From the NCBI GenBank assembly GCA_022264855.1, contig JABYQU010000011.1:310001-374000 (forward strand): a DNA stretch of 64,000 bases. Direction: 5' to 3'. Every line of letters starts with the position of its first letter. Positions within the stretch are counted from its first letter, which is position 1. This document shows positions 18,920 to 34,528 of the stretch, one piece after another. This DNA comes from Lenzites betulinus. Its lineage: Eukaryota; Basidiomycota; Agaricomycetes; Polyporales; Polyporaceae. Made by a program: the position numbers and the translations under genes. The notes under the pieces are model-generated. The model was not told the origin of the DNA, did no database searches, and was given only the letters and a program-made list of their open reading frames with translations.

Positions 18920-19282
18920 TGGGTGGTGGTGGTGGTCAAACCGGTGTCCCGGGTCCTCAGCACTTTCTAAGAGGGTAGAGGGTCAAACTTGCGCAACTTC
19001 CGTGGTACGCATTTGTAACTCACAATAATTGGCCTAGACGTTGATTATGCTACAGGCAACCATCTGTGATATTTTGGTGGCTTTAGAGGAGTTGCGAGAG
19101 CATAAAATCAAGTCATTGGTAGTGAACCTGAGGAGGTGGAATTGAAGCGCCCAGCACTTGCCATATCCGAATGTGATCTATCATACCCCGGTGATCTAAT
19201 CTATTCGATCCGCTCGCACTTCAGAATCTGCATGTCAGCCATCTCTACGACTTCCATCGTTTAATCCACTATGTCTTCGACC
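18920..19282. other. Left interior of the TIR element, non-coding
   Basis: No coding sequence seen. A block rich in GGTGGT and ACCGGTGTCCCGGG at 18925-18975 resembles, in the opposite orientation, sequence at 34530-34575 near the right end. An ATG at 19271 is cut after 17 nt by the copia insertion. Confidence 0.55.
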
Positions 19283-19287
19283 TCAGA

Positions 19288-19843
19288 TGTTGAACTTCCG
19301 TGTTTACGGCTGTGCCGGACCGGGAGTTGCCGTGTGTGGCCGTGCGTCTACAATACGCCGGCATGGACATTCTTACTTACCTGTTATGGACATTGTACTA
19401 TACACGGCATCTCATCATCTTTACTGATGATTCTGGTGCGTTCTACGCTGCTCCGGTACATTCCAGATCCCTATGGAAGTCTCTAGAATATGGCATCATT
19501 CTTGCGCGATATGTCGTCGTAGTCTTGCTCATCGTCTTACTCATCGCATAGGCTACTTACTCAGCGTCCTCTGGACGTCACATGCTTCTCTTTTATGCTT
19601 ACTCATCGCAGTCCTCCAGTAGTATATAAGGAGGACATTCTCTGCCATAGCTCTTCAGTCTTTCGCTCACAGACTGAAGAGTAAGTCCCACTACCTCTAT
19701 GCCTACATATGTGTTACTTACCAGTACTTGTAGTTCCTCTTTGTGCGGCTCATAGGTACTGTCAATATGATTATAGTCTTTCGCTCACAGACTGAAGATT
19801 CCTCTTTGTGCGGCTCACAGCCTTCCAGGTTCAGAGTTCTTCA
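19288..19843 (+). repeat. 5' LTR of the copia element
   Basis: Starts TGTTGAACTTCCGTG, ends GAGTTCTTCA. A TATA-like tagtatataagg occurs near 19618-19630, a likely promoter TATA box. A short ORF is repeated identically in both LTRs and is not considered a gene. Confidence 0.95.
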
Positions 19844-19863
19844 GGTTATGAGCCCTGCGCTCT
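19844..19863 (+). other. Primer-binding site matching initiator-tRNA(Met) anticodon arm
   Basis: GGTTATGAGCCCTGCGCTC directly after the 5' LTR is the complement of the anticodon stem-loop of initiator tRNA-Met (GCGCAGGGCTCATAACC), not of a tRNA 3' end. Drosophila copia and yeast Ty5 are known to prime from a cleaved half-tRNA in the same way. Confidence 0.8.
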
Positions 19864-20857
19864 AACCGGTTGCTACCTCAGTCGACACCGCGCGCGCACC
19901 CTATCCGTCGACCTTCCGCTGGTTTGTGCACACCCTCCCCCATCTTTCCTAACCTCTTGACTGTGCCCGCCGACACTGCTACCAGGGGGACATTTCTGCG
20001 CTTGTGACGCAGCCCTGAGTGCTTTTCTCATAGCCCTACATAGCCATACGTACACAGGCCTTTGTAGTGCGGCCTTCTTTCTGTATCCCTCGGCCGGGCC
20101 CTGCACTTGCGGTAGCCAGTCGTTGTATCCGGGTTCTTTAGGAACTTTGGAGCCGGAGGACAACCGTTCGGACCCTCCTTACGATACTTTTTGGCTTGAG
20201 TACGCACTTTACATAGCTTTCTTGGGCACAGTTGGCGACTTCTATCTGGATTTCTGGGTATATCGGCTACCTAGATTTCTGGCTCACCTCAATAGGTGTT
20301 CATCTCTACCTTACCGTGCACACAGCGAGTCAATCATCGCGCTTCCCTGAACCGTTTTGGAGCCCACAACTGCTGAACCACTTGACTTGGACTCAGAGGA
20401 AGAAGTCGACGCCACTCTCGACAACTCTTCTGAAAGCGCAGCGACTTTTGACTGCACAGGCCTTCCTCATATCTTCGACACAGAGGATCGGTTTGATCGA
20501 CACCAGGACAAAGACGACGAGTGGCAGGAGTGTGACAACTTTCCTTGCCCTAATCGCTACGGTCCCGTCGGCGTAACTACCCAGGAGTGGGCCGCTCCTG
20601 CTCATCCTAGTCAGGTTCCAGCACACCTCGTACCTCTCCCACAGTCCCCAGAGGCTTGGGACGTACCTCTCCCGTCTGTTGACAACTCCCCGTCTCCCGT
20701 TGCAACTCCTCTCCCTCCGGATCCATTCCTCGAAGTCCCCACTCTCTCTCCCCCTTCTCCGGTTCATCTCGAACTTGTTCCGGAGTACCCAACTCTAGAT
20801 TTCGCTTCGGAACGCGCCGAGGACTTCGCAGACTCTCCCCAATTCCTTCTACTCACA
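19864..20857. other. Copia leader, about 1 kb, partly open in frame with gag
   Basis: Long leader between primer site and gag ATG. From about 20351 the frame is open without an ATG and runs into gag. Its translation is acidic and Pro-rich. Either untranslated leader or a non-AUG N-terminal extension. Confidence 0.5.
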
Positions 20858-23800
20858 ATGGGAGACGTCAAGCCGGATTCTGTCCCTATCCTCTCTTCGG
20901 CTGCTCAGTACTCTGACTGGGCTGCCAAGATGAAGGGTCTTCTGATGTTTATGAACTGCTGGGAAGTGGTTTCTGGTTCGGATACCCCTCCGACTGAAGT
21001 TGAGGCTCTCAAGGACTACAAGAAGCAAAACGCGCAGGCTTCTGGTTTGCTCTTCATGCGGACCGGGCCTAGCTTCCACTACCTCCTTGAGAAGACCACC
21101 ACCACTAACAACACCACCACTGTCACCTCGCTCACTGCGAAACAAATGTGGAATGCGCTGAAGGACAAGTTTGGGAAACCGAACTCAGCGCACATGTGGG
21201 GTCTCTTTGAATCGCTCATTAGCGAGCCTCGTATGTCGGACCAGCGTTCCCTCCAGGATCAGATCAGTCGGTGATACGGTAAGAGGTGCTCTGACGGCCG
21301 ATAGCCGAGGGGTAGAGGACGTCTAGGTGGGTGATGAAGGGGAGTAAGGTCTCGAGCTCCCTGGGTTCGCTGGTAGGCCGCCCGTGTACTGTTCGCGCGC
21401 AAGCGGGTGGGATGCCTCTCAAGCACAGGGCGGGCGCGCGCGCGGACTCGCGCTGTAGAAGGGCGCGCGCGGAGGTAAACTCAGTAACGCAACGCGCGCA
21501 GGAATAACGCAACACTCGCAGTCAGCCGCGGGGCTTCGCAACGCAGTACGCACGCAGTAAAACGCAGGAGAGAACGGAATAGACGCGATATACGCAACTG
21601 ACGGTACACTGTCACAGCGGAGAGGTCTCCAGTCGTCCTGCCTTGAAGTGGAAGCGGTTGCACGTCGAGAAGCGCGAGGGACACGTTCCCAGCAGTTGAG
21701 AGAGTGAGGGGTGGATTGTCTGGGGGGTTCGAATGCCCCGAAATGACTATGTACAAGAATGCCCGCAGGCTGAATCAAAAACACGTGCTACCACACGGAA
21801 GATAAGCGGAAACCGGGCCCGGGATGCCTCGCGCGCCGGGCGCACTCGCCGCGCGCGATCCGACTCTTCGCGCGCCTCGTGCGCGCGCCACTGATGCGCC
21901 CAGCGGACCCGCGCGCGCGAGCAGCTAGGGCAGAGGGCTCTGGATAGCGACAGGCATCGCGCGCGCCGTGGTGAAGTGCCCCGCGCGCATCTTGACCTTG
22001 TGCGCGATGGGCTACATGCACTGCGCGCGCGACATAGGGGGTACCAAGGTGTGCAGTGGGCTCTGCGCGCGCTGTGGTTGGTGTGCGCGCGCAAGGGGGG
22101 AAAAGAAGGGTTTCTGGCCTGGAACACCTGTGGAGCGTATCATCGGATCGTCACGCGGATTCGCGAGATCTCGACCAATGGTCTTGAACTCAAGGAGAAC
22201 ATCCAGGCCCTCATCCTCCTTTCCAAGGTCCCGGACTCGTATCGGTCAATGATTTCTGCGCTCATGGCAACTACAGAGGTTGACAAAATCACCGTCGACA
22301 CCATCCTCGAGAAGACGCTCTCTGAGGAATCCATGCGCAAGACCGGACAGTCCGCCTCCCGCATCTCTAAGACCAAGCCCAAGCCTTCTGGTCCTTGTGA
22401 CCATTGTGGTAGTGCGACGCATCATGAGTCGACCTGCTACAAGAAGCATCCCGAGCTTCGTCCCAAGGGCAAAGGCAATGGCGGGAAGAAGAAAGGGAAG
22501 GAGAAGAAGGACAATCCCCCGGCCAATCATACTCATACCGTTGCTCCGTCTGCCAATGTACTTGTAGCTACTGAGTCCCCCGCTGATTCGCAAATGCACG
22601 CTTCTTTCTATCGTGCGGCACATGCCGCGGGTGTGAATCATACTCACTGGCTCATGGACTCTGGAGCATCTTCGCATGTCACCTGGAACCTCGCAGACTT
22701 TGCCGAGTACAAGCCTTTCGATAAACCTCTGAACTTTAGCACTGCAGCTTCTGGCAGCGGTAGCATCGTTCAAGGACTTGGCGAGGGAACGGTGGAAGCG
22801 GATATCTTTATCGGTGGTGTAAAGTGGAAGATAACACTGACCAACGTATGCTACGTCCCTCGGGCGTCATCGCGGTTGTTTTCCACCGGAACCATTGAGA
22901 AGAACGGTTATTCTATCTTCCAAGGAGGCGGGAAGATGATAATCTTCGACAAACTGCCCAAGGGCTCTGTCGAGCATGGTGCGACGATCTCCATTCCTGG
23001 ACATAAAGTCCTGGAGGCGTTGTATGACCCGGTGTTAAACCTGTATACCTTGCATATGGATATCTCTCCTAGCAAGAAGCTCCACCTGACCGTTCTGTCC
23101 TATAAGACTTGGCATTGCCGCTATGGCCATGCAAGCAAGGAGGCATTGTCTCGCCTTCCTAAGAACGTGAAGGGTGTTGATGCTATTGATCCTGCGGACA
23201 CTGAGCCTTGCAAGGGATGCGCCTGGGGCAAATCCACTTGTCTCCCCTTTCCACCTTCTGAGAAACGTGCGAGTGAAGTTCTTGAACTCATTCATACGGA
23301 TCTCGACGGTCCTATGCGAACTGCGTCGGTTGGCGGAGGTTTCACCTACTTTGCTAGCTTTATCGATGACTTCTCCGGTCTTGGTTGCGCCTACTTTCTG
23401 AAGCAGAAGTCTCAAGCTTTCGAGGCTTTTAACACCTTCAAGGCGTGGGCTGAAAATCAGACTGGGAAGAAAATCAAACGGGTTCGTTCGGACCGTGGGG
23501 GGGAATACCATTCCGCTGAGTTCTCGGATCATCTTCGTAAACTCGGGATCGAACACCAGATGTCTACACCAAAGACGCCACAGCAGAATGGACGTGCTGA
23601 GCGCTGGAACCGTACTATTGTCGAGAAGGCAATGGCCATGCTACACCAAGCGGGTCTTAGCCACGGTTTCTGGATGCACGCTGTAGACACAGCCGTTCAT
23701 ATCTACAATCGTCAGCCCATGCGTCGCCTTAAATGGCGCTGCCCCATCACTGTCTGGGACGGGACCGTGCCGGACGTGTCCTACTTCCGGGTGTTTGGGT

Positions 23801-25986
23801 GCAAAGCTTTCGTCCATGTGCAGAAGTCAGAGCGCGCGGGAAAACTCGACAAGAAGGCAGTCGAGATGATCTTTGTGGGGTATGAAGCCGGTTCAAAGGG
23901 GTACAGATTTTGGAACCCGGCCACCCGCTCTATCGTCGTATCTCGCGATGTGATATTTGATGAAGAGTTGTTCCCTGCACGTAAAACCTCCGGTGATGCT
24001 CCTGCTGCCCCACAGGACAATCCCTTCCCAGAGCACCCTGATTCGTCGGATGTGATCTCCAATTTCGACTCCGGCGATGACCTCCCTTTCCCTCTTCCTA
24101 TTCCTCTCAATGATCCTCTTCCGGACGTCCATCGTCCACCTACTCCTGAACCTCCACCCGCTCCTGCACCTGCACCTGCTCCTGCTGCGCCTGAAGTCCC
24201 GCCTGCTGTCCCACCTCCTCGTCCTACCCACCAACGGCAACGTCATGAGCCAGTGGGAGGTCCCAGTGTTGCGCGCGATCGTCCTCGTCGAGAGAACGTG
24301 CCGCGACCTGAACGTTACAGGGATAGTGTCTATGGCAACGAACCCCCTGCTCGTGTTGATTCGCGGACAGATGACGACGGCACTCAGCATGCGGAAACTC
24401 TCCTAGCTATACTTGCAGCCTCTCAGTATAAGACTGGCCTACCTAATTCACATAAGGAAGCCATGAAGTCTCCTCACGCTGCTAAGTGGACGCTTGCTGA
24501 GAAAGCGGAGTTTGACTCGCTCATGGAGAACAAGACTTGGATACTCGTTCCTCGTCCCAAGGGTCGTCACGTCGTCGCCTGTCGCTGGGTGTATGACATT
24601 AAACATGATGGCAGGTTCAAGGCTCGTCTTGTAGCCAAGGGGTTTACCCAGATCTGGGGGGAGGACTACCATGAAACCTTCTCGCCTGTAGCGCGTTTCG
24701 AGTCTATTCGCTACCTCTTCGCGCACGCTGCGCTTGAAGACTGGGAAGCTGAAACTATGGACGTCGCTACCGCCTTTCTCAATGGCGACTTGAAGGAGGA
24801 AATCTACATGGAACAACCGGAAGGTTGGGCAGTGCGCGGCAAGGAGGACCACGTCTGTCTCTTGAAGAAGGCTCTCTATGGCCTCAAGCAGGCGTCGCGT
24901 CAGTGGAATGAGAAAATCCACAAGTCCCTCCTTGACCTGGGCTTCCTTCGTACCTATTCTGATGCTGGAGTCTACGTATATCGTCAACAAGGGGGGGATG
25001 GGTCCGTTACAATTGTCGTACTCTATGTCGACGACCTACTTCTCTTCGGAAACCGGCCTCACTATATCAAGCACGTAAAAGACACGCTGATGAAGCAGTA
25101 CAAGATGAAGGACTTGGGACCCGTTCAGCGGTTCCTTGGGCTTCGTATCACTCGTGATCGTTCCACTCGTACTATTGAGATCGACCAAACCGAGTATATT
25201 GAGTCCGTTCTTCAGCGCTTCAACATGGCGGATTGCAAGCCGGCACGTACCCCTCTCCCTGCGGGCGCGGTTCTAGAAGCCACAGACCAGCCTGCCTCAG
25301 ACTCCTTCAGGACCCGCTACCAGAGCTTAATAGGCAGTCTTCTGTACGCCACTCTCGGTACGCGACCTGACATCGACTTCGCTGTGACACGGTTGTCTAA
25401 GTACAACGCCCAACCGTCGAATGCGCACTGGGACTATGCCAAGTACGTTCTGCGTTACCTTCAAGGGACAAAGAACTACCGGTTGTGCTACCAAGGGGCG
25501 TCCAATGATGGTCTGCTGTCCTACTTGGACTCTGACTATGCTGAGGACCGTGATGATCGGCACTCTACCACCGGCTTCGTCTTCTTGATGGCAGGCGGCG
25601 CTATCTCATGGGCGTCGAGGCGGCAGCCTACAATCTCTGTCTCCTCTACTGAGGCGGAGTACAAGGCGGCATCCGATACCTGTCGTCAGCTGACTTGGCT
25701 GAGGACATTCGGCAGCGAGTTGGGGGATGACATTTCGCGGCCTACGCCTTTGTGCGTGGACAATCAGGGATCTATATTCCTCGCCGTTAACCCCGTCGTT
25801 GACCGTCGTACCAAGCACATTGAAGTCCGTTACCATTACGTTCGAGAGCAGGTCAAACTAGGGAACGTTGAGATCTTCTATGTCGCTACTGCGGACCAGC
25901 TTGCTGATGCCCTCACGAAGAACGTGCCCTTCTCCATATTGGACCGTTTCAGAAGGGGTATTGGTTTGGTCACCTCCGCATCTTGA
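20858..25986 (+). pseudogene. Copia Gag-Pol polyprotein gene, split by an insertion
   Basis: Single-frame Gag-Pol typical of fungal copia. Gag starts MGDVKPDSVPILSS (ATG at 20858, context acaATGG). The frame stops at 21272 where the 871-bp element sits, and resumes at 22147. Subtracting that element and one duplication makes the two halves continuous (about 1417 codons). Downstream domains: CCHC knuckle CDHCGSATHHESTC; protease WLMDSGASSHVT; integrase with HTDLDGP, SDRGGEYHS and NGRAERWNRT; reverse transcriptase with LYVDDLLL; RNase H with SSTEAEYKAA. No other stop or frameshift is seen, so function was probably lost only through the nested insertion. Confidence 0.93.
21272..22142 (+). mobile_element. 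871-bp LTR-like element nested in copia gag
   Basis: Starts TGATACGG and ends GCGTATCA, so termini are TG...CA with a 7-bp inverted repeat, flanked by the 4-bp duplication TCGG (21268-21271, 22143-22146). No coding capacity; very rich in gcgcgc. Best explained as a solo LTR. A short non-autonomous DNA element cannot be excluded. A diverged inverted copy of exactly the same length lies at 36934-37804. Confidence 0.75.
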
Positions 25987-25997
25987 ACGAGTGGGAG

Positions 25998-26553
25998 TGT
26001 TGAACTTCCGTGTTTATGGCTGTGCCGGACCGGGAGTTGCCGTGTGTGGCCGTGCGTCTACAATACGCCGGCATGGACATTCTTACTTACCTGTTATGGA
26101 CATTGTACTATACACGGCATCTCATCATCTTTACTGATGATTCTGGTGCGTTCTACGCTGCTCCGGTACATTCCAGATCCCTATGGAAGTCTCTAGAATA
26201 TGGCATCATTCTTGCGCGATATGTCGTCGTAGTCTTGCTCATCGTCTTACTCATCGCATAGGCTACTTACTCAGCGTCCTCTGGACGTCACATGCTTCTC
26301 TTTTATGCTTACTCATCGCAGTCCTCCAGTAGTATATAAGGAGGACATTCTCTGCCATAGCTCTTCAGTCTTTCGCTCACAGACTGAAGAGTAAGTCCCA
26401 CTACCTCTATGCCTACATATGTGTTACTTACCAGTACTTGTAGTTCCTCTTTGTGCGGCTCACAGGTACTGTCAATATGATTATAGTCTTTCGCTCACAG
26501 ACTGAAGATTCCTCTTTGTGCGGCTCACAGCCTTCCAGGTTCAGAGTTCTTCA
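25998..26553 (+). repeat. 3' LTR of the copia element
   Basis: Same length as the 5' LTR, two differences seen. Preceded by the purine-rich GAGTGGGAG (25989-25997), the probable polypurine tract. Confidence 0.95.
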
Positions 26554-27177: not shown

Positions 27178-27541
27178 TGTTAAGACGATGCCTAGTGGTT
27201 TGCTTGTTAGGCTTTTAGCACAGGGACTTAGATGCTTCACACAGAGGGATCGAGGTTCAGAGGGGAGGTTCGAAGGGCGATAGATAACCAGGTCGAGCTG
27301 AGGTTCTCCTCAGCTCTCCTACTCGTATATATACATGTGAGACACTCTGTAACCATGAGGCACAGCCTGCAGGTAACCACGCCGTAGCCATAAGGTACTG
27401 AAACGCGTAGCGGAAACACACTGTAGCCATGAGGCACTGAAACACGTATCCAAAACACAAGGTATCCACGAGGCAGAGTCCGTGACTGATTCCAGACATA
27501 ACGTGTGACCAACCGTTACTGAAGCACGTACGGTTGTAACA
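27178..27541 (-). repeat. 3' LTR of the gypsy element
   Basis: 364 bp. Differs from the other LTR at four positions seen, three near the left end and one near the right end. Confidence 0.95.
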
Positions 27542-27580
27542 TAACCCCCTTTCTATGGTAGGAAGTCGCCCTCGACTTCT

Positions 27581-28552
27581 TCAGATAGTGTCGCGGAAGT
27601 GTCGAAGCTCCGGTGAGCGTGGAGGAGAGCGAGGGGACGCAGTTCCGAACCAAGGGCAGTCCGCGTCGAGATGTCCTGCACCCCACATCCTGCACCAACG
27701 ACACTGTCTTTGGGGACAGTATAGCGTTCTGTGGCCGACGATGATGCAGTTGAGACAGAACTGTTCATTGGCTATCGCGTCGAGGATGGGGTATTGACTG
27801 GTAGTCGCGTTTTCCGCAGCGACAGGTACCGGAGTGGCGTAGAATGGGATTGATAGCTGCGGTGGAGGAGGGATTGGAAGTGGTGCTTGCCACGATACGG
27901 GTCTGGGGGTGTCAGGACGAGGACGTAGGGGTTGGATCTGTTCGAGACAAGGTCGAACATATCGTGCTTCAGGGGCCGGGGATAGCGCGCGTGTTTGTCG
28001 AGACGATGCTGGACCTCCCGGATGCTCGGTTGGCTCTGGTTCACCGAGTTCCGGTACAATTCGTCCAAAGTACTGTTGGAGGCGGTGGCGGTTGGTGGGC
28101 CACGAGAGGGCATGGTCGATGTTCTCTCGTGCGTCCGAGAGGTGTTGCATCCCTTCGTCGAGGTGGTAGAGCGCGTGTGCCGCTTCTTCTCCGGGGACAT
28201 TCTCCAATGCTTGTTGTACTGCTTCGAGGTGACGGATTACGCGCCTTTGGTAGAACTCCTGGCTGACCACTACCCACAGGTTGTAGTTGCGTCTCGAAAG
28301 GGTTTCGTCGACTATGTCTTCGAGCTCGTTTTGAGTGTCGACGGCTCGTGCATAGGCCACAGCGAAAGCTTCTATCCGTGGGTCCGACAATTGTACCGCT
28401 TCAGATTCGTGAAGAGTTTCCTCCGACGAGTTCGACGATTGAGTGGGTGCGATGTTTTCGTCGACAAACACGTAACTGGCGGTGTCTTCGACGGGTGTGT
28501 TAGGCCGAGTCGGGACCCAGGTATTGCGCGAGAATGGGAGTTCCATCCCCAT
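27581..28552 (-). CDS. Chromovirus ORF C: zinc-knuckle protein of unknown function
   Basis: 323 codons from ATG at 28552; the frame is open back to about 28660 without another ATG. It overlaps the end of ORF B in a different frame and stops about 40 bp before the 3' LTR. N-terminal half is acidic and probably helical (EAFAVAYARAVDTQNELEDI, HLEAVQQALENVPGEEAAHA). The middle is Pro-rich. The C-terminus has a canonical knuckle CLNCIIVGHRTLYC (CX2CX4HX4C) followed at once by a second, longer one CRWCRMWGAGHLDADC (CX2CX6HX4C). No membrane segment. This is not Gag, which is separately encoded upstream. The knuckles suggest nucleic-acid binding. I do not recognise a family. Confidence 0.65.
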   Translation of the reverse strand: MGMELPFSRNTWVPTRPNTPVEDTASYVFVDENIAPTQSSNSSEETLHESEAVQLSDPRIEAFAVAYARAVDTQNELEDIVDETLSRRNYNLWVVVSQEFYQRRVIRHLEAVQQALENVPGEEAAHALYHLDEGMQHLSDARENIDHALSWPTNRHRLQQYFGRIVPELGEPEPTEHPGGPASSRQTRALSPAPEARYVRPCLEQIQPLRPRPDTPRPVSWQAPLPIPPPPQLSIPFYATPVPVAAENATTSQYPILDAIANEQFCLNCIIVGHRTLYCPQRQCRWCRMWGAGHLDADCPWFGTASPRSPPRSPELRHFRDTI

Positions 28553-28715
28553 GGCTGGTCGCAGTGTCTTCGACGGTGGTGGGAGAGAGTGGGTCGCGGT
28601 GGTCGAGGAGGTGTTGGAGGAGTGAGAAGTAGAGTTGGGAAACGTATCTGAGGAAGGCAAGAGCGAAGAGGAATGCGGTGAAGGTGGTGATGAGGACGGC
28701 GACTATGTTCCCCAT
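28500..28715 (-). CDS. Chromovirus ORF B: 71-aa single-pass membrane protein
   Basis: ATG at 28715 lies inside the last codons of ORF A, with start and stop overlapping in ATGGGGAACATAG. One strong hydrophobic segment at the N-terminus (GNIVAVLITTFTAFLFALAF) followed by RYVSQLYF and a polar Ser/Thr/Asp tail. No homologue recognised. Spacing relative to ORF A and C suggests polycistronic or spliced expression. Confidence 0.55.
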   Translation of the reverse strand: MGNIVAVLITTFTAFLFALAFLRYVSQLYFSLLQHLLDHRDPLSPTTVEDTATSHGDGTPILAQYLGPDSA

Positions 28716-28873
28716 GCGTTGAAGTCGTCCTTCTTGGGGGGGTAGTCCCTGGAGAGGAGGGTCCTCTCGAGTAGTCGTTGAGAGAACTCTCGCAGGATGT
28801 AGGCGATGGCTGCGAGGGAGATGGCGAAGAGGGCGAGAATGTAGAGGCAGAGGAGTGCGAGGAGTGCGAGCAT
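28703..28873 (-). CDS. Chromovirus ORF A: 56-aa membrane protein
   Basis: ATG at 28873 lies 9 nt after the pol stop codon. Residues 1-27 are almost entirely Leu/Ala/Ile (MLALLALLCLYILALFAISL, then AAIAYILREF), then a charged tail RLLERTLLSRDYPPKKDD. Could be a signal-anchor or small viroporin-like protein. Function unknown. Confidence 0.5.
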   Translation of the reverse strand: MLALLALLCLYILALFAISLAAIAYILREFSQRLLERTLLSRDYPPKKDDFNAWGT

Positions 28874-28881
28874 GTTGAGGT

Positions 28882-31800
28882 TTAGGCCAGTTTCTTGGCC
28901 CGCTTATATCCTTCTAGGAGCTCCTGGGCATGAGGCAGCAGCATGTCTTCCGGTTCCCATGTATTTTCGGCACTGGAGTATCCTTTCCACTTGATTCGGT
29001 AACTGATTCCGCCTCGTTGCTTCTTGTGTCCCACGATGGCCTCAACTTCGTATTCTTCTTGATCGTCGATCAGATCAGGTGGAGGGCGCGTGTAGTTGGG
29101 GCCGTGTGTGTCGTTTTCCTTATAAGGGGTGAGGAAACTTGCGTGGAACACGGGGTGGATCTTCCATGTTTCAGGTAGCTTGAGACGGTAATTGAGGGTG
29201 CTGATGACTTCGAGGATTTCAAATGGTCCTTCTCGTTTGGGCGCAAGTTTCCTGGTGGCGTATGACAGTTTCAAATTCTTGCCTTCGAGCCAGACTTTCT
29301 GCCCTTTCTTGAAGGGGATGAACTTTCCCATAATGCGGTCCCTCATTATTTGCCGGGCTAGCTCATGTGCCGCTAGCGCTTCGTCACGTGCCTTTTGCAG
29401 GCTCGTTAGGCGGTCTTGTACCAGGGGGACATTGGTCCTTGGGTAGGCAATAGGGATCAAGGACGGGTTGTATCCCATCATGAGGTAGAAGGGAGAGGCG
29501 TTTCTGGCTGCATGGGCTCGTTGATTGTGCGCCACTTCTGCGTCGATCAGGTGTCTTGACCAGGTGTCTGGTCGTCCAGTGCAGAAGATCCAGAGATAGA
29601 CTTCGAGTTCTTGATTGGCTCGTTCCGTTTGTCCGTCGCTCTGTGGGTGATATGCGGTGCTGAGAGACAGTGTGATCTTCAGGAGTCTTCCTAGTTCCTT
29701 GGTGACGTGTGATGTGAATTGTGGTCCTCTGTCGGAGATGATCTTTTCTGGAAGGCCAAAACGTCGGTATACGGTTTGATACATGAGTGCGGCTGTTCCA
29801 ATGGCGTCGATGGTCTTGTTGCAAGGTGTAAGGATTACCCCCTTTGTAAGGCCGTGGTCTACCATGACCATGATTGAGTCAAAACCATCGGATGTCGGTA
29901 GATCGGTGATGTAGTCGACAGAGACTTGCTGGAAGGGTCGTGTGACGCCGTCAGCCGAGATGGGGTTCAGCGGTGGTGTGGTGGGATGTGTATTGATCTT
30001 GTTTTGCTGGCATTCCGTGCACCCTTCCACGTAGCGAGACACCATAGTGTGCATTCCCGGCCACCAGTAGTCGCGTCGTAGGAGTTCTAGTGTTTTGAAG
30101 CGTCCGGGGTGTCCCATTGCCGGGGTGTCATGGTAGCGTTGGATTAGGTCTCTCCGAAGTTGTTCATCAGCGGGGACGTAGCATCTGTTCTTGAAGAATA
30201 CCATTCCGTCCCGTTCTTCCCAATCCGATAGTGCAGATTTGATGGGGGGAAGTGTTCCGGTCTTCAGTGCCATGTGTATTGCTTGGAATATCTGGTCTTT
30301 GATGACAAACTCTCTGAAGCGTGTTTGCAGTTCGGAGTCAATCATCCTGACGAAGAGATGTTCGGGTAGGAGGACGCGGTCATTATTGTCGATCTTCTTG
30401 TCATGGCCAAGGTCGTGTTGTCTGGACAGGGTGTCGGATTGGATCATGTCTTTTCCTGGGACGTGGTGTAGCTGGATGTCGAATTCTGATAGGAAGAGTA
30501 GCCATCTTGCTTGCCGTCGGTTCAGCCGGTGGGCATCACGATAGTAGGTCAGGTTCTTGTGGTCAGAAAGGACTTGTACTGGATGAGGTGCTCCGAGGAG
30601 GTAGTGGCGCCATTCTTGTAGAGATCGGATTATCCCTAGGAGTTCTTTGTCATAGATCTCGTAGTTTCGTTCTGCTTCGTTGAATCCTTTGGACAGGTAT
30701 GCACATGGATGGAGGTCGCCATTTTCGTCTCGTTGTCGGAGGACAGCTCCTGATGCAAAGTCCGATGCGTCTGATTCGATGAAGAATGGTTTGGAGATGT
30801 CAGGCATTAGCAGGACAGGTGCTGTGGTGAATCTGTTCTTCAGGGTGTCAAAGGCTTGCTGACAGGCTGGTGTCCATTCCCACTTGGTGTTCTTTCGGGT
30901 TAGGTCGTTCAGCGGTTTTGCAATATCCGAAAAGTGATCGATAAAACGCCTGTAGAAGTTGCCAAAGCCCAAGAACGACCGTACCCCTTTGACGTCAGTG
31001 GGTTCTTTCCAGTCCTGGATGCCTTTCAGCTTGATAGGGTCCATGGCTACCTGGTTTTCCCGGATGATCATCCCAAGATATTCCACTTCTGGTGCGTCAA
31101 AAGTGCATTTCTCCAGCTTCAAGAACAGGTCATTTTCTTGTAGCCTTTGCAGCACCCTTCGTGTCCGTTCTTCGTGTGTCTTCTGGTCTTTCGAAAAGAT
31201 GAGGATATCGTCCATGTAGATCACAAGCCATCCTTCGTTGATCATGTCTTTGAATAGGGCGTTCATCATTGCCTGAAAGGTTCCTGGGGAATTGCATAGT
31301 CCGAAGAACATGACCATGGGTTCAAATAGTCCACAGTGGGTCTTGAAAGCTGCTTTCCATTGATCACCGTCCTTGATTCACACGTTGTTGTAGCCTGATC
31401 GCAGGTCTAATTTGGAGAAGACCTTGGCACCTTGCAACTTGTCAACCAGTTTGGCTACTAGCGGGAGCGGGTATGCATTCTTGATGGTTCCTTCGTTGAG
31501 GTAGCGGTAGTCTTGACATGGCCGTAAAGATCCATCCTTCTTGCCAACAAAGAATAGTGGTGATGCCATTGGGGATTTGGATTCGCGAATATAGCCTTTC
31601 TTTAGGTTTTCATTGATGAATTCGTCGGCTGCTTGTTGTTCCTGTGGAGACAGCCGATATGGTTTGAAATCCTTAGGCACGAAATCCGGTTTCAGTTCAA
31701 TGGCATGGTCCCAGGGTCTTGAGGATGGGAATTGTTCCGCCGCTTTCTTCTCAAATACCGATGCAAATTCTTGGTATGCTTCAGGTAAGATCTTCTGGTT

Positions 31801-32697
31801 ATTCCCGGATGCTTGTTGTGCGAGCGCCATAGCTGGGTTGATCTTGGCCTGTATCCAGAGATTCATAGAGTAGATGAAGCTTGTTCCTTCCGGTGCTCGA
31901 TAGATTCGTCCTACTCGCGGGCGGGGACGGACTCGCTGGTCTTGTTCCTCCTGAGGGTCTTCTGTGGTGAGTTTGTCTCCTAGCTTCAGGTAGTCCCCGT
32001 GGTGCTCAATGGTCTTGTCCAGGTACGCTAGTATCAGATTGTCAGTGCATTGTTCTTGGTGCTCGTCATTTGGCGTGGGTAATTCCGCAAAGGGTGCTTT
32101 CATGGTGTCCTGTTGTGCAGTGGTGCTGCCTTCTTCCGACTGTTGGCGCATACTGTCTTCAGGAATATCTTCTATGGTTGTCTTCCGCATGATTCGTCAA
32201 GTGAAGTGGTTCTGTTCTGGGAACCAGAGCTGTCGCAAACGTTCAGAGAGTTGTAGATTCACTTTTGCTGGGTCGATGTGAAGGGAGCCTCGGGTGAAGT
32301 CAATTTTGGCGTTGACCCGTTGTAGCCAAGGAAGCCCTAAGATGATCTTCTCCTTTCCTAGAGAGGTGACGAGCATGCGGACAAGATGTCGATGTCCTCC
32401 AGCTTCGATTTCTAGGACTGAACAGTCTTTGATTGTCCCTTGCTTGTTTGGGGTTCCATCGGCGTTGAAGGCTCGTATAGGGACCTTGAGGGGTTGTATC
32501 GACACTTTCTTTTCTAGGACATATCGATAGTCCACAAAGGAGTCTTGTGCTCCCGTATCGATAAGGGCTTGGGTTTCGACGATTCGGTCCGTGATTATGG
32601 CCAGCGGTATCCTCATGGATTGCTTGGTGGTGTCTGCCATAATTACAGCACGGACCTGCGTGCGTGGTTTCGACGTCGCTTCGGACCACGTTCTCAA
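28882..32697 (-). pseudogene. Chromovirus Pol (protease, RT, RNase H, integrase, chromodomain)
   Basis: Entered from gag by an apparent -1 frameshift at 32697-32703. Protease: [26 protein letters not shown] and [10 protein letters not shown]. RNase [16 protein letters not shown]. Integrase zinc finger [20 protein letters not shown] with CTECQQNK, and core motifs [17 protein letters not shown] and [11 protein letters not shown]-terminal chromodomain [19 protein letters not shown]. Two TGA codons interrupt the frame, at 32197-32199 between protease and RT and at 31378-31380 inside RT just before IKDGDQW. The second sits where relatives have Arg, so a CGA-to-TGA change is likely. Otherwise continuous. 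Confidence 0.92.
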
Positions 32698-33611
32698 AAA
32701 CCCTCCTCCAGGATGACCTTCACCATCGAGTCCCTCTCAACTGGGTTGGTAACTCCTCTGAGTGCAGTGCGAATTCTGGCTGTTGTGACAGTGCGAGTGT
32801 TCCCGTCTTCGTTGTCCTCTTCTTCGGCTTCTTCCTCGGTTTCGGTCATCCGCATTTTGCGTGCTGGCCGTTTCCCTTTGTTCTTCCTGGTTGGGCAGTG
32901 GCGAGAGAGATGTCCAATTTCATGACAGGTGAAGCATCGTCCTTCCTTGTAGTGTCGGTCTCTTTCTTCGGTAGTCATGTGATCGACATCCATGGCATCA
33001 GGGTCCTTCTCCTTGTGGCTCGAGTAGCGCTTTGGGAAGAATACTGGCTTCTTCGTCGAGTTCTTGTCGTAGGCTTGGCCTAGTCGCCATTGCTGTTCAA
33101 GGCGGGCTGCTTGGGAGTAGAGCGTGTTGGTGGTCGTTGGCATGGTAGCCAATGCAAACATCTTTTCTCTCAAGGGTTTGTTCAGCCCTTGATAGAAAAA
33201 GTCGGCAATGACGTTGAAGTCGTTGATTCTGCATTGACTGATGACATTCTTGAACTCGAGAATATATTCTTCCGCTGTCTTCTTGCCCTGATTGAGGTTC
33301 CGTAGCAGGACTCTGGCGCTGGCGGCCATATCGACGTCTTGGAACGAAGCTTTGAGTGCTTCCTTGAAGGCATTCCAAGTGCCATAGTTGACGGGGTTCT
33401 GAGCTTCTGCATTGGTGATGAAGTCGCTGGCCCATTGTCCTGCCGTTCCTTCGTTCATCAGCATGAGAGCGAATGTTATTTTCTTCTCGTCGGTGTTGAA
33501 CTTGGTTTCGTAGAATTTGAAGTAGAGAGCACATTTCTGGGTCCATCCGATGAGCTCTTCTCGTTTGCCATCAAAGGTCGGCGGCATTTTGAGCTTGACT
33601 TCGTCTGCCAT
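32694..33611 (-). CDS. Chromovirus Gag
   Basis: Capsid-nucleocapsid polyprotein: MADEVKLKMPPTFDGKREEL, retrotrans_gag core (WASDFITNA, AFKEALKASF, EYILEFKNVI) and CCHC knuckle CFTCHEIGHLSRHC. First in-frame ATG is 33611, giving 305 aa. The same frame is open upstream to about 34083 without an ATG and is acidic/Pro-rich, so a longer product from a near-cognate start (for example GTG at 33938) is possible. Ends TTT TGA, overlapping the -1 slippery site. Confidence 0.88.
   Translation of the reverse strand: MADEVKLKMPPTFDGKREELIGWTQKCALYFKFYETKFNTDEKKITFALMLMNEGTAGQWASDFITNAEAQNPVNYGTWNAFKEALKASFQDVDMAASARVLLRNLNQGKKTAEEYILEFKNVISQCRINDFNVIADFFYQGLNKPLREKMFALATMPTTTNTLYSQAARLEQQWRLGQAYDKNSTKKPVFFPKRYSSHKEKDPDAMDVDHMTTEERDRHYKEGRCFTCHEIGHLSRHCPTRKNKGKRPARKMRMTETEEEAEEEDNEDGNTRTVTTARIRTALRGVTNPVERDSMVKVILEEGF
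32697..32703 (-). promoter_or_regulatory. Programmed -1 frameshift heptamer G GGT TTT
   Basis: On the minus strand the gag frame reads GAG GGT TTT TGA. G GGT TTT fits the X XXY YYZ rule and the stop codon follows directly. Slipping back one base joins the protease-pol frame (TTG AGA ACG). A downstream stimulatory structure was not checked. Confidence 0.7.
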
Positions 33612-34164
33612 TCTTTCTGTGATTCTGGGTTGCGGTTGGGGTTCTTCATGGATATGGATAGTGGCTACTGCTTCTGTCAATGCAGGAAGTTCTCCGGTGG
33701 TTCGTGGGGTGGGGGTGTCAAAGCTATGCTGAGATTGCTCTGATTCGCTCTCAGAGTTCTCGGGTTCTGGTTCTCTTGGGACAGGGTCTTCCTGTGCGAT
33801 CTGGTCGAGTGGGGTCGGGTTCGGTGTGACTCTTAGTCTCGGGGCTTCTCTTCTGGTGAAGCGATAGTATCGTTCGTCGTAGTTGGGGTTCTCTGTTCGG
33901 AGTTCGTCGACAGTTACGTCTGTTCGTTCTTGGTTCACATATTTCCACTTATCGTCTCCTACTGGGTAGACTAGGCGTCCTTCGTGGTAGATTAACCCGG
34001 TGCTAGGGTTAAAGGACCAGTCTTCTGATTCGTTCGGGATTGGTTCCGTGTCGATTCGTCGGGTTACCGCTCGCTTTTCAGCAGCGGTTCAGGTTCAGGT
34101 TCGTCGGGTTTCAGCTGGTTGTCTAGATCTTGGTAGATCGACGGGTGGGGAGAGCTCGACCTTA

Positions 34165-34528
34165 TGTTAAGACGATGCCCAGTGGTTCGCTTGTTAGGCT
34201 TTCAGCACAGGGACTTAGATGCTTCACACAGAGGGATCGAGGTTCAGAGGGGAGGTTCGAAGGGCGATAGATAACCAGGTCGAGCTGAGGTTCTCCTCAG
34301 CTCTCCTACTCGTATATATACATGTGAGACACTCTGTAACCATGAGGCACAGCCTGCAGGTAACCACGCCGTAGCCATAAGGTACTGAAACGCGTAGCGG
34401 AAACACACTGTAGCCATGAGGCACTGAAACACGTATCCAAAACACAAGGTATCCACGAGGCAGAGTCCGTGACTGATTCCAGACATAACGTGTGACCAAC
34501 CGTTACTGAAGCACGTACAGTTGTAACA
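34165..34528 (-). repeat. 5' LTR of the gypsy element
   Basis: 364 bp. In element sense begins TGTTACAACTGTACG and ends at 34165. The sequence just inside (minus strand of 34145-34164) is the probable primer site; the tRNA was not identified. Confidence 0.95.

Follow-up and report, generated by a model that had tools for sequence, protein, structure and literature searches.

A candidate accessory module of three chained ORFs between pol and the 3' LTR of a Lenzites betulinus chromovirus

Post-pol ORFs in described elements and in the Lenzites chromovirus

Additional ORFs have been marked in fungal elements by Novikova et al. 2010 (PMC2864245), gag and pol are described in the accessible part of Muszewska et al. 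2011 (PMC3248453), and the usual domains are given in that of the Coniophora paper (PMC5689174). In plants, the aORF-3S (Vicient and Casacuberta 2020, PMC7264820) are sense ORFs of unknown function situated between pol and the 3' LTR, retained by most copies and in some cases provided with transmembrane segments. FAST-like proteins are described from pistolviruses (PMC12945298), and in Drosophila elements of the MDG1 group, which lack Env, the FAST-like sORF2 has been proposed to serve the direct cell-to-cell passage of capsids (Voichek et al. 2025, PMC11952523). The sORF2 frame lies upstream of gag, and its product combines an ectodomain with a basic patch, the motif MGxxxS/T being present in four of six cases.

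The element described here lies in a 64,000-nt window of the L. betulinus genome (the whole stretch of DNA analysed, to which the coordinates of the element refer). Like the elements of Novikova et al. 2010 (PMC2864245), it is a chromodomain-bearing fungal gypsy element with extra coding capacity, but the available text of that paper gives no place, size or sequence of the ORF and makes no mention of membrane micro-ORFs or of a second knuckle protein. With plant aORF-3S (PMC7264820) it shares sense ORFs between pol and the 3' LTR that most copies retain; unlike them, its ORFs belong to a fungal chromovirus, form a chain of three overlapping frames, include proteins of 56 and 71 aa, and encode a double CCHC motif. 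The set of ORFs, called A, B and C below, is a real, selected and family-specific variant of the known class of additional post-pol ORFs. ORF B recalls sORF2 (PMC11952523) in its length of about 70 aa, its single hydrophobic segment, its position on the gag-pol strand and its occurrence in an element without envelope, but it lies downstream of pol, has one Arg past the segment and lacks the canonical MGxxxS/T. At most three residues precede the hydrophobic segment in B and one in A, where sORF2 and FAST proteins have an ectodomain. With neither ectodomain nor canonical motif, and with a basic patch that is doubtful at best, B is not classed as an sORF2 protein.

The element itself occupies positions 27178..34528 of the minus strand (7351 nt) and is delimited by an LTR pair, Pfam domains and a flanking 5-bp duplication; the LTR pair, the Pfam domain order and the chromodomain bear out its preliminary description as a gypsy chromovirus. 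The 5' LTR (34165..34528, minus strand, 364 nt) matches the 3' LTR (27178..27541, minus strand, 364 nt) at 360 of 364 sites, leaving four mismatches. Gag (32694..33611, minus strand) is a protein of 305 aa recognised by Pfam Retrotrans_gag, with a single CCHC knuckle, CFTCHEIGHLSRHC. The pol frame (28882..32736, minus strand) encodes protease, RT, RNase H, integrase and chromodomain, with RT and RNase H preceding integrase as in Ty3/gypsy chromoviruses, and the chromodomain stands at the integrase C-terminus (Pfam Chromo, E 8.9e-17, residues 756-806 of 811). In the window copy pol is broken by two in-frame stops; an uninterrupted frame of 1284 codons holds in four other matches. The pol stop at 28882-28884 is 1340 nt distant from the 3' LTR, and a polypurine tract, AGAAAGGGGG, can be read from the sequence at 27545..27554 (minus strand), within the 39 nt that separate the end of ORF C from the LTR.

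A putative primer-binding site, AGGTCGAGCT, is located just past the 5' LTR at 34153..34162 (minus strand); its ten bases are the complement of positions 243-252 of the LTR (window 34277-34286), about 30 nt behind TATATATA (34313-34320; shuffle p=0.001). The LTR-internal ten bases are kept in all 10 other copies examined, and the site past the LTR is identical in eight of the nine other copies displayed, with one change in the ninth. This complementarity suggests self-primed reverse transcription, a mode of priming that Tf1 reportedly uses. The window also contains a Copia-like element (19271-26261, plus strand) with a 1245-aa frame at 22249-25986; since an identical peptide is encoded on both sides of this frame, at 19363-19551 and 26016-26261, these ends are probably the LTRs of the element, which seems to bear a G+C-rich insert at about 21275-22140.

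The preliminary description had placed ORFs A, B and C downstream of pol, and its coordinates, lengths and motifs are all correct. ORF A (28703..28873, minus strand, 56 aa) starts 8 nt past the pol stop and overlaps ORF B (28500..28715, minus strand, 71 aa) by 13 nt, and ORF B in turn overlaps ORF C (27581..28552, minus strand, 323 aa) by 53 nt, the start contexts being AAC-ATG-C (A), CGC-ATG-G (B) and GCC-ATG-G (C). Each of the two smaller proteins has one N-terminal hydrophobic segment, at residues 2-20 of 56 in A and 4-22 of 71 in B, followed in both by an amphipathic stretch. The top 19-residue hydropathy, taken from a hydropathy scale, is 2.82 for A, 2.57 for B and 1.14 for C, in agreement with the earlier view of A and B as hydrophobic micro-proteins. 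B begins with MGNIVA, has one Arg directly past the segment and a net charge of -4; A begins with MLALLA, has several Arg/Lys in its tail and a net charge of +1. A and B were rejected as mutual duplicates, the p of 0.042 obtained with plain shuffles rising to 0.166 when segment and tail were shuffled separately.

ORF C combines a predicted helical region and a proline-rich linker with two zinc knuckles, CLNCIIVGHRTLYC (CX2CX4HX4C, residues 266-279) and CRWCRMWGAGHLDADC (CX2CX6HX4C, residues 284-299), and is, beside gag with its one motif, the second knuckle protein it had been taken for, with Pfam zf-CCHC absent from its matches at E 1. Structure prediction, proposed at the outset as a check on ORF C, gave a helical region at about residues 58-165 ahead of the linker and the knuckles, at the low confidence of a single-sequence AlphaFold model (mean pLDDT 40, pTM 0.25) that was too poor to be used for a fold search. 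The possibility that ORF C duplicates gag was rejected, the alignment being confined to the knuckle (hhalign probability 1.2, best BLASTP E 0.031). Inspection by eye revealed no -1 slippery heptamer at the A/B overlap, and RNA folding at the three junctions gave z values of -0.74, -1.76 and 0.95. The sequence CCGTCGAAGACAC occurs twice within 28494-28576, 82 nt apart, encoding VEDTA in B and standing in another frame near the start of ORF C.

Among 5.8 billion proteins ORF C has no relative at E 0.01 (2145 candidates), and ORF B yielded no candidate. Gag, which is similar to C in length, finds 32 matches in the same collection, ten of them at 48-86% identity and one from Trametes pubescens, which indicates that the collection does contain related elements. 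Judged by these searches, a widely shared ORF C appears unlikely, and its fast divergence is conceivable. No relative of ORF C was found in viral contigs, but the same is true of pol, hence this collection is uninformative. Neither Pfam nor NCBIfam gave a credible match for any of the three ORFs, solved structures gave none for ORF C, and Rfam yielded no match at all. No paper describing the A/B/C gene set was found in a literature that excludes Repbase reports and most subscription journals.

Copies of the family and selection on the ORFs

The genome searched comprises 37.4 Mb in 108 contigs, and all copy counts are lower bounds. At least 21 matches to C and at least 16 each to B and A are present. 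A match to the 3' part of pol defines at least 18 loci of the family, of which 16 reach the chromodomain end and carry, without exception, the sequence of A, B and C, so that same-strand ORFs between pol and the 3' LTR are found in 16 of the 18. The region is not a fragment captured by a single copy, one of three outcomes that the preliminary description had named as contradicting its proposal. Another, copies devoid of these frames, does occur at the remaining two of the 18 loci, but both break off upstream, inside the chromodomain.

The three ORFs differ in how well they are preserved. ORF B is closed at 71 aa in all 16 copies. ORF A keeps its 56 aa in 11 of the 16; two copies end it after residue 27 or 32, past the hydrophobic segment, and three shift to another frame after residue 46. 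ORF C has 323 aa in eight copies and 315 aa, through an in-frame deletion of 8 residues, in one; six copies have a premature stop, which in one of them removes just 7 residues, and a single copy has an interrupted frame. The three copies with the frameshift in A have in common a one-base difference in a C run, where an assembly error is conceivable. Their LTR pairs differ at 0-1 of 365 sites, which implies that they moved recently without full-length A, alone or helped, and full-length ORF A is expendable in cis.

Identical LTR pairs are present in five of the 11 copies for which they could be measured, the other five of the 16 having no usable pair, and 5-bp target duplications flank nine of these 11. 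Three of the nine duplications (L015, L016, L019) read CAAGC or its complement GCTTG, which may point to preferred target sites or to a repeat into which the copies inserted. Two near-identical copies of the family (L018 and L022, contig C33; pol tree branch 0.0004 each) stand in head-to-head orientation, with about 10 kb between them, in what looks like an inverted duplication. Six young copies with nearly identical pol fall into two groups in the ORF C tree, a discord that suggests exchange between copies.

The lengths of the ORFs carry unequal weight. In Markov-1 resamples of the 1340-nt region an ORF of at least 323 aa appeared in 2 of 1000, and in resamples of its first 380 nt one of at least 71 aa appeared in 210 of 1000. 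Beneath A and B, stop codons are almost absent whichever of the three frames is read. For these two ORFs length alone therefore proves nothing, and it is the other copies that decide. Comparison across copies, called for by the preliminary description, gave pooled pairwise dN/dS values of 0.144 for A, 0.083 for B and 0.166 for C, similar to those of gag (0.183), protease (0.242), the first part of RT (0.196) and the stretch from RT through integrase to the chromodomain (0.110); these rest on 15-16 rows per gene, with copies missing more than half of the gene omitted and codons with stops or gaps set aside.

Because substitutions are mostly C-to-T or G-to-A, the numbers of synonymous variants were tested against a null in which identical base changes were scattered at random. 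Under this spectrum-matched placement, synonymous variants are in excess in ORF B (10 of 13, null mean 5.1, p=0.0024), in ORF C (74 of 137, null mean 42.6, p<2e-4) and in the pol end (18 of 27, null mean 9.6, p=0.0008), and number 8 of 14 in ORF A (null mean 5.5, p=0.125); the p values are approximate, the copies being related by descent and their variants non-independent. The two alternative frames of A, B and C display no such excess. Neutral decay, named beforehand as a further contradicting outcome, is rejected for B and C but not for ORF A. B and C are shown to be protein-coding and to have been kept by selection during the multiplication of the family, and ORF A is probably coding.

Both the A/B and the B/C overlaps are free of variants. 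The latter is spanned by an 84-nt run without any substitution (28491..28574, minus strand), which is explained by double coding; an RNA signal there, with a fold z of -0.74, is conceivable. All eight knuckle ligands of ORF C are invariant in the nine aligned copies, as are most other residues (the alignments of ORF C and of ORF B each include nine of the 16 copies), and at about 3% divergence such invariance is weak evidence. Across 16 copies of ORF C, amino acid-changing variants per 100 codons amount to 17.1 in the knuckles, compared with 14.7 and 18.6 in helical region and linker, respectively; the knuckle region is no more constrained than the rest.

Post-pol genes in other chromovirus lineages of the genome

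A search with the pol end yielded at least 109 matches, with 120 of 132 candidates scored, and from these we examined 20 flanks outside the A/B/C family, besides three short pieces and two ends belonging to the family itself. Five of the 20 flanks come from a single family, at about 50% identity in pol, whose post-pol frame reaches 400 aa (L029) and is whole in some copies and broken in others; in one copy the frame is followed by a G-run and the LTR-like start TGTTACAA. A further flank (L045) has a post-pol gene of 299 aa with matches at 100%, 100% and 63% identity, and weaker relatives of it (30-48%), containing a repeated motif like ALIPHPIYGPGAQNAL, are located beside pol matches at three further places. 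The post-pol proteins at L048, L049, L050 and L045 have a repeated motif like ALIPHPIYGPGAQNALVxYR, kept across diverged families. Two more flanks, L046 (709-3225) and L047, have an 838-aa frame past the chromodomain in copies that are 99.8% alike; the N-terminal part of its product is coiled-coil-like and Arg/Ser-rich, and relatives at 44-48%, both with stops, stand beside pol matches at two more places. The other 12 flanks, inspected by eye, contain no convincing post-pol gene, L043 and L044 sharing a frame of 235-239 aa.

For one pair each of two of these genes, dN/dS is 0.27 (400-aa type) and 0.24 (at a dS of 1.37, which is near saturation). Profile comparison detected no similarity of ORF C to the 400-aa and 299-aa types, and each of the three proteins is encoded by a single large ORF without a CCHC motif. 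Unrelated post-pol genes thus occur in at least three further lineages of chromoviruses in this genome, where the preliminary statement that chromoviruses normally end with the chromodomain is a poor guide. The A/B/C module belongs to a more general tendency, but two micro-ORFs together with a double-knuckle protein were observed in one family only.

Possible roles of the module

What could be the use of these ORFs to the element? The reading that we prefer, and to which we give about an even chance, is that of a family-specific accessory module of micro-proteins and a knuckle protein, placed between pol and the 3' LTR of a recently active chromovirus. B, and likewise A, would be single-pass membrane micro-proteins, ORF C with its helical domain, flexible linker and two knuckles would bind nucleic acid, and the whole might act at a host membrane, aiding the assembly of particles or the movement of the element's RNA or cDNA. 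Translation could proceed from genomic RNA by stop and restart at the junctions, given the 8-nt gap and the overlaps of 13 and 53 nt, or alternatively from a spliced RNA. The accessory module is argued for by its presence at all 16 loci that reach it, the intact B in 16 of 16, the frame-specific synonymous excess in B and C, the variant-free overlaps and dN/dS values like those of gag and pol, as well as by the hydrophobic N-termini with their amphipathic continuation, the two knuckles, the young insertions and the constrained post-pol genes of other lineages in the same genome. Counted against it are the frameshifted or truncated A in five of 16 copies, the broken, shortened or interrupted C in seven of 16, and searches in which no homologue or fold was found.

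The same chained order, with its short gap and overlaps, would also be expected if ORF C were the sole working protein, a second nucleocapsid or RNA chaperone, and A and B served as relay frames, passing re-initiating ribosomes along from the stop of pol to the start of C, and the tolerance of ORF A to truncation and frameshift fits such a role. We regard this as unlikely, since conservation is seen in the protein sequence of B, 10 of whose 13 variants are synonymous (p=0.0024), and B is intact in every copy; the copies with a frameshift in A, moreover, are young despite their altered relay. A more far-reaching proposal would make B, A or both small fusogens similar to FAST proteins and sORF2, passing capsids between cells or hyphal compartments while C packages nucleic acid. 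B at 71 aa is close to sORF2 in length, has one hydrophobic segment with an amphipathic stretch behind it and an MG start, and is encoded on the strand of gag and pol; in Lepidoptera, sORF2 lies downstream of pol in 7 of 22 cases, according to the accessible part of PMC11952523. However, the segment of B begins at residue 4 and leaves no room for an N-terminal ectodomain, its first six residues lack the S/T of the canonical motif, a single Arg directly follows the segment, and the net charge of the protein is -4; A has a basic tail, yet an ML start. By this analogy a fusogenic role appears improbable. We are equally doubtful of its evolutionary corollary, that fungal chromoviruses evolved a kit for envelope-independent transmission or membrane assembly convergent with the insect sORF2 system, a kit in which one or two membrane micro-proteins would take capsids to or across a membrane, accompanied by a second, nucleocapsid-like knuckle protein.

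The remaining explanations deny the ORFs a role of this kind or assign them a classical one. Captured fragments of host or foreign genes, functionless in the element, would agree with the failure to find relatives of B and C in other elements, but B and C are under selection, all genome matches to C are at least 90% identical, the 16 longest lie within element copies, and no diverged host copy exists among them, which makes capture very improbable. Chance open frames are favoured by the C-rich, stop-poor DNA, by the frequency of ORFs as long as B in the resampled A/B stretch and by the absence of significance for A alone; they are scarcely tenable in view of the frame-specific synonymous excess and the overlaps without variants, and for B and C they are refuted at the level of the synonymous-excess test. 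The position past pol and the hydrophobic segments could recall a classical envelope protein, one way to understand the assembly or envelope-like module that the preliminary description had suggested. In this classical sense the suggestion is not supported: A and B, with 56 and 71 aa, carry their hydrophobic part at the extreme N-terminus with no surface domain left, C has no strongly hydrophobic segment, and Pfam identified no envelope family, so that the probability of an envelope protein is next to negligible.

Fungal LTR retrotransposons are usually described through gag and pol alone. The constraint on B and on a second knuckle protein, similar to that on gag and pol, means that some step of the life cycle seems to use them, and the family hints in this way at an unrecognised helper step in the copying or spread of the element. 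With unrelated post-pol genes in at least three further lineages, chromoviruses may represent an unmined store of accessory genes. The accessory module also raises a testable question, namely whether small membrane proteins serve assembly or movement in envelope-less elements outside insects.
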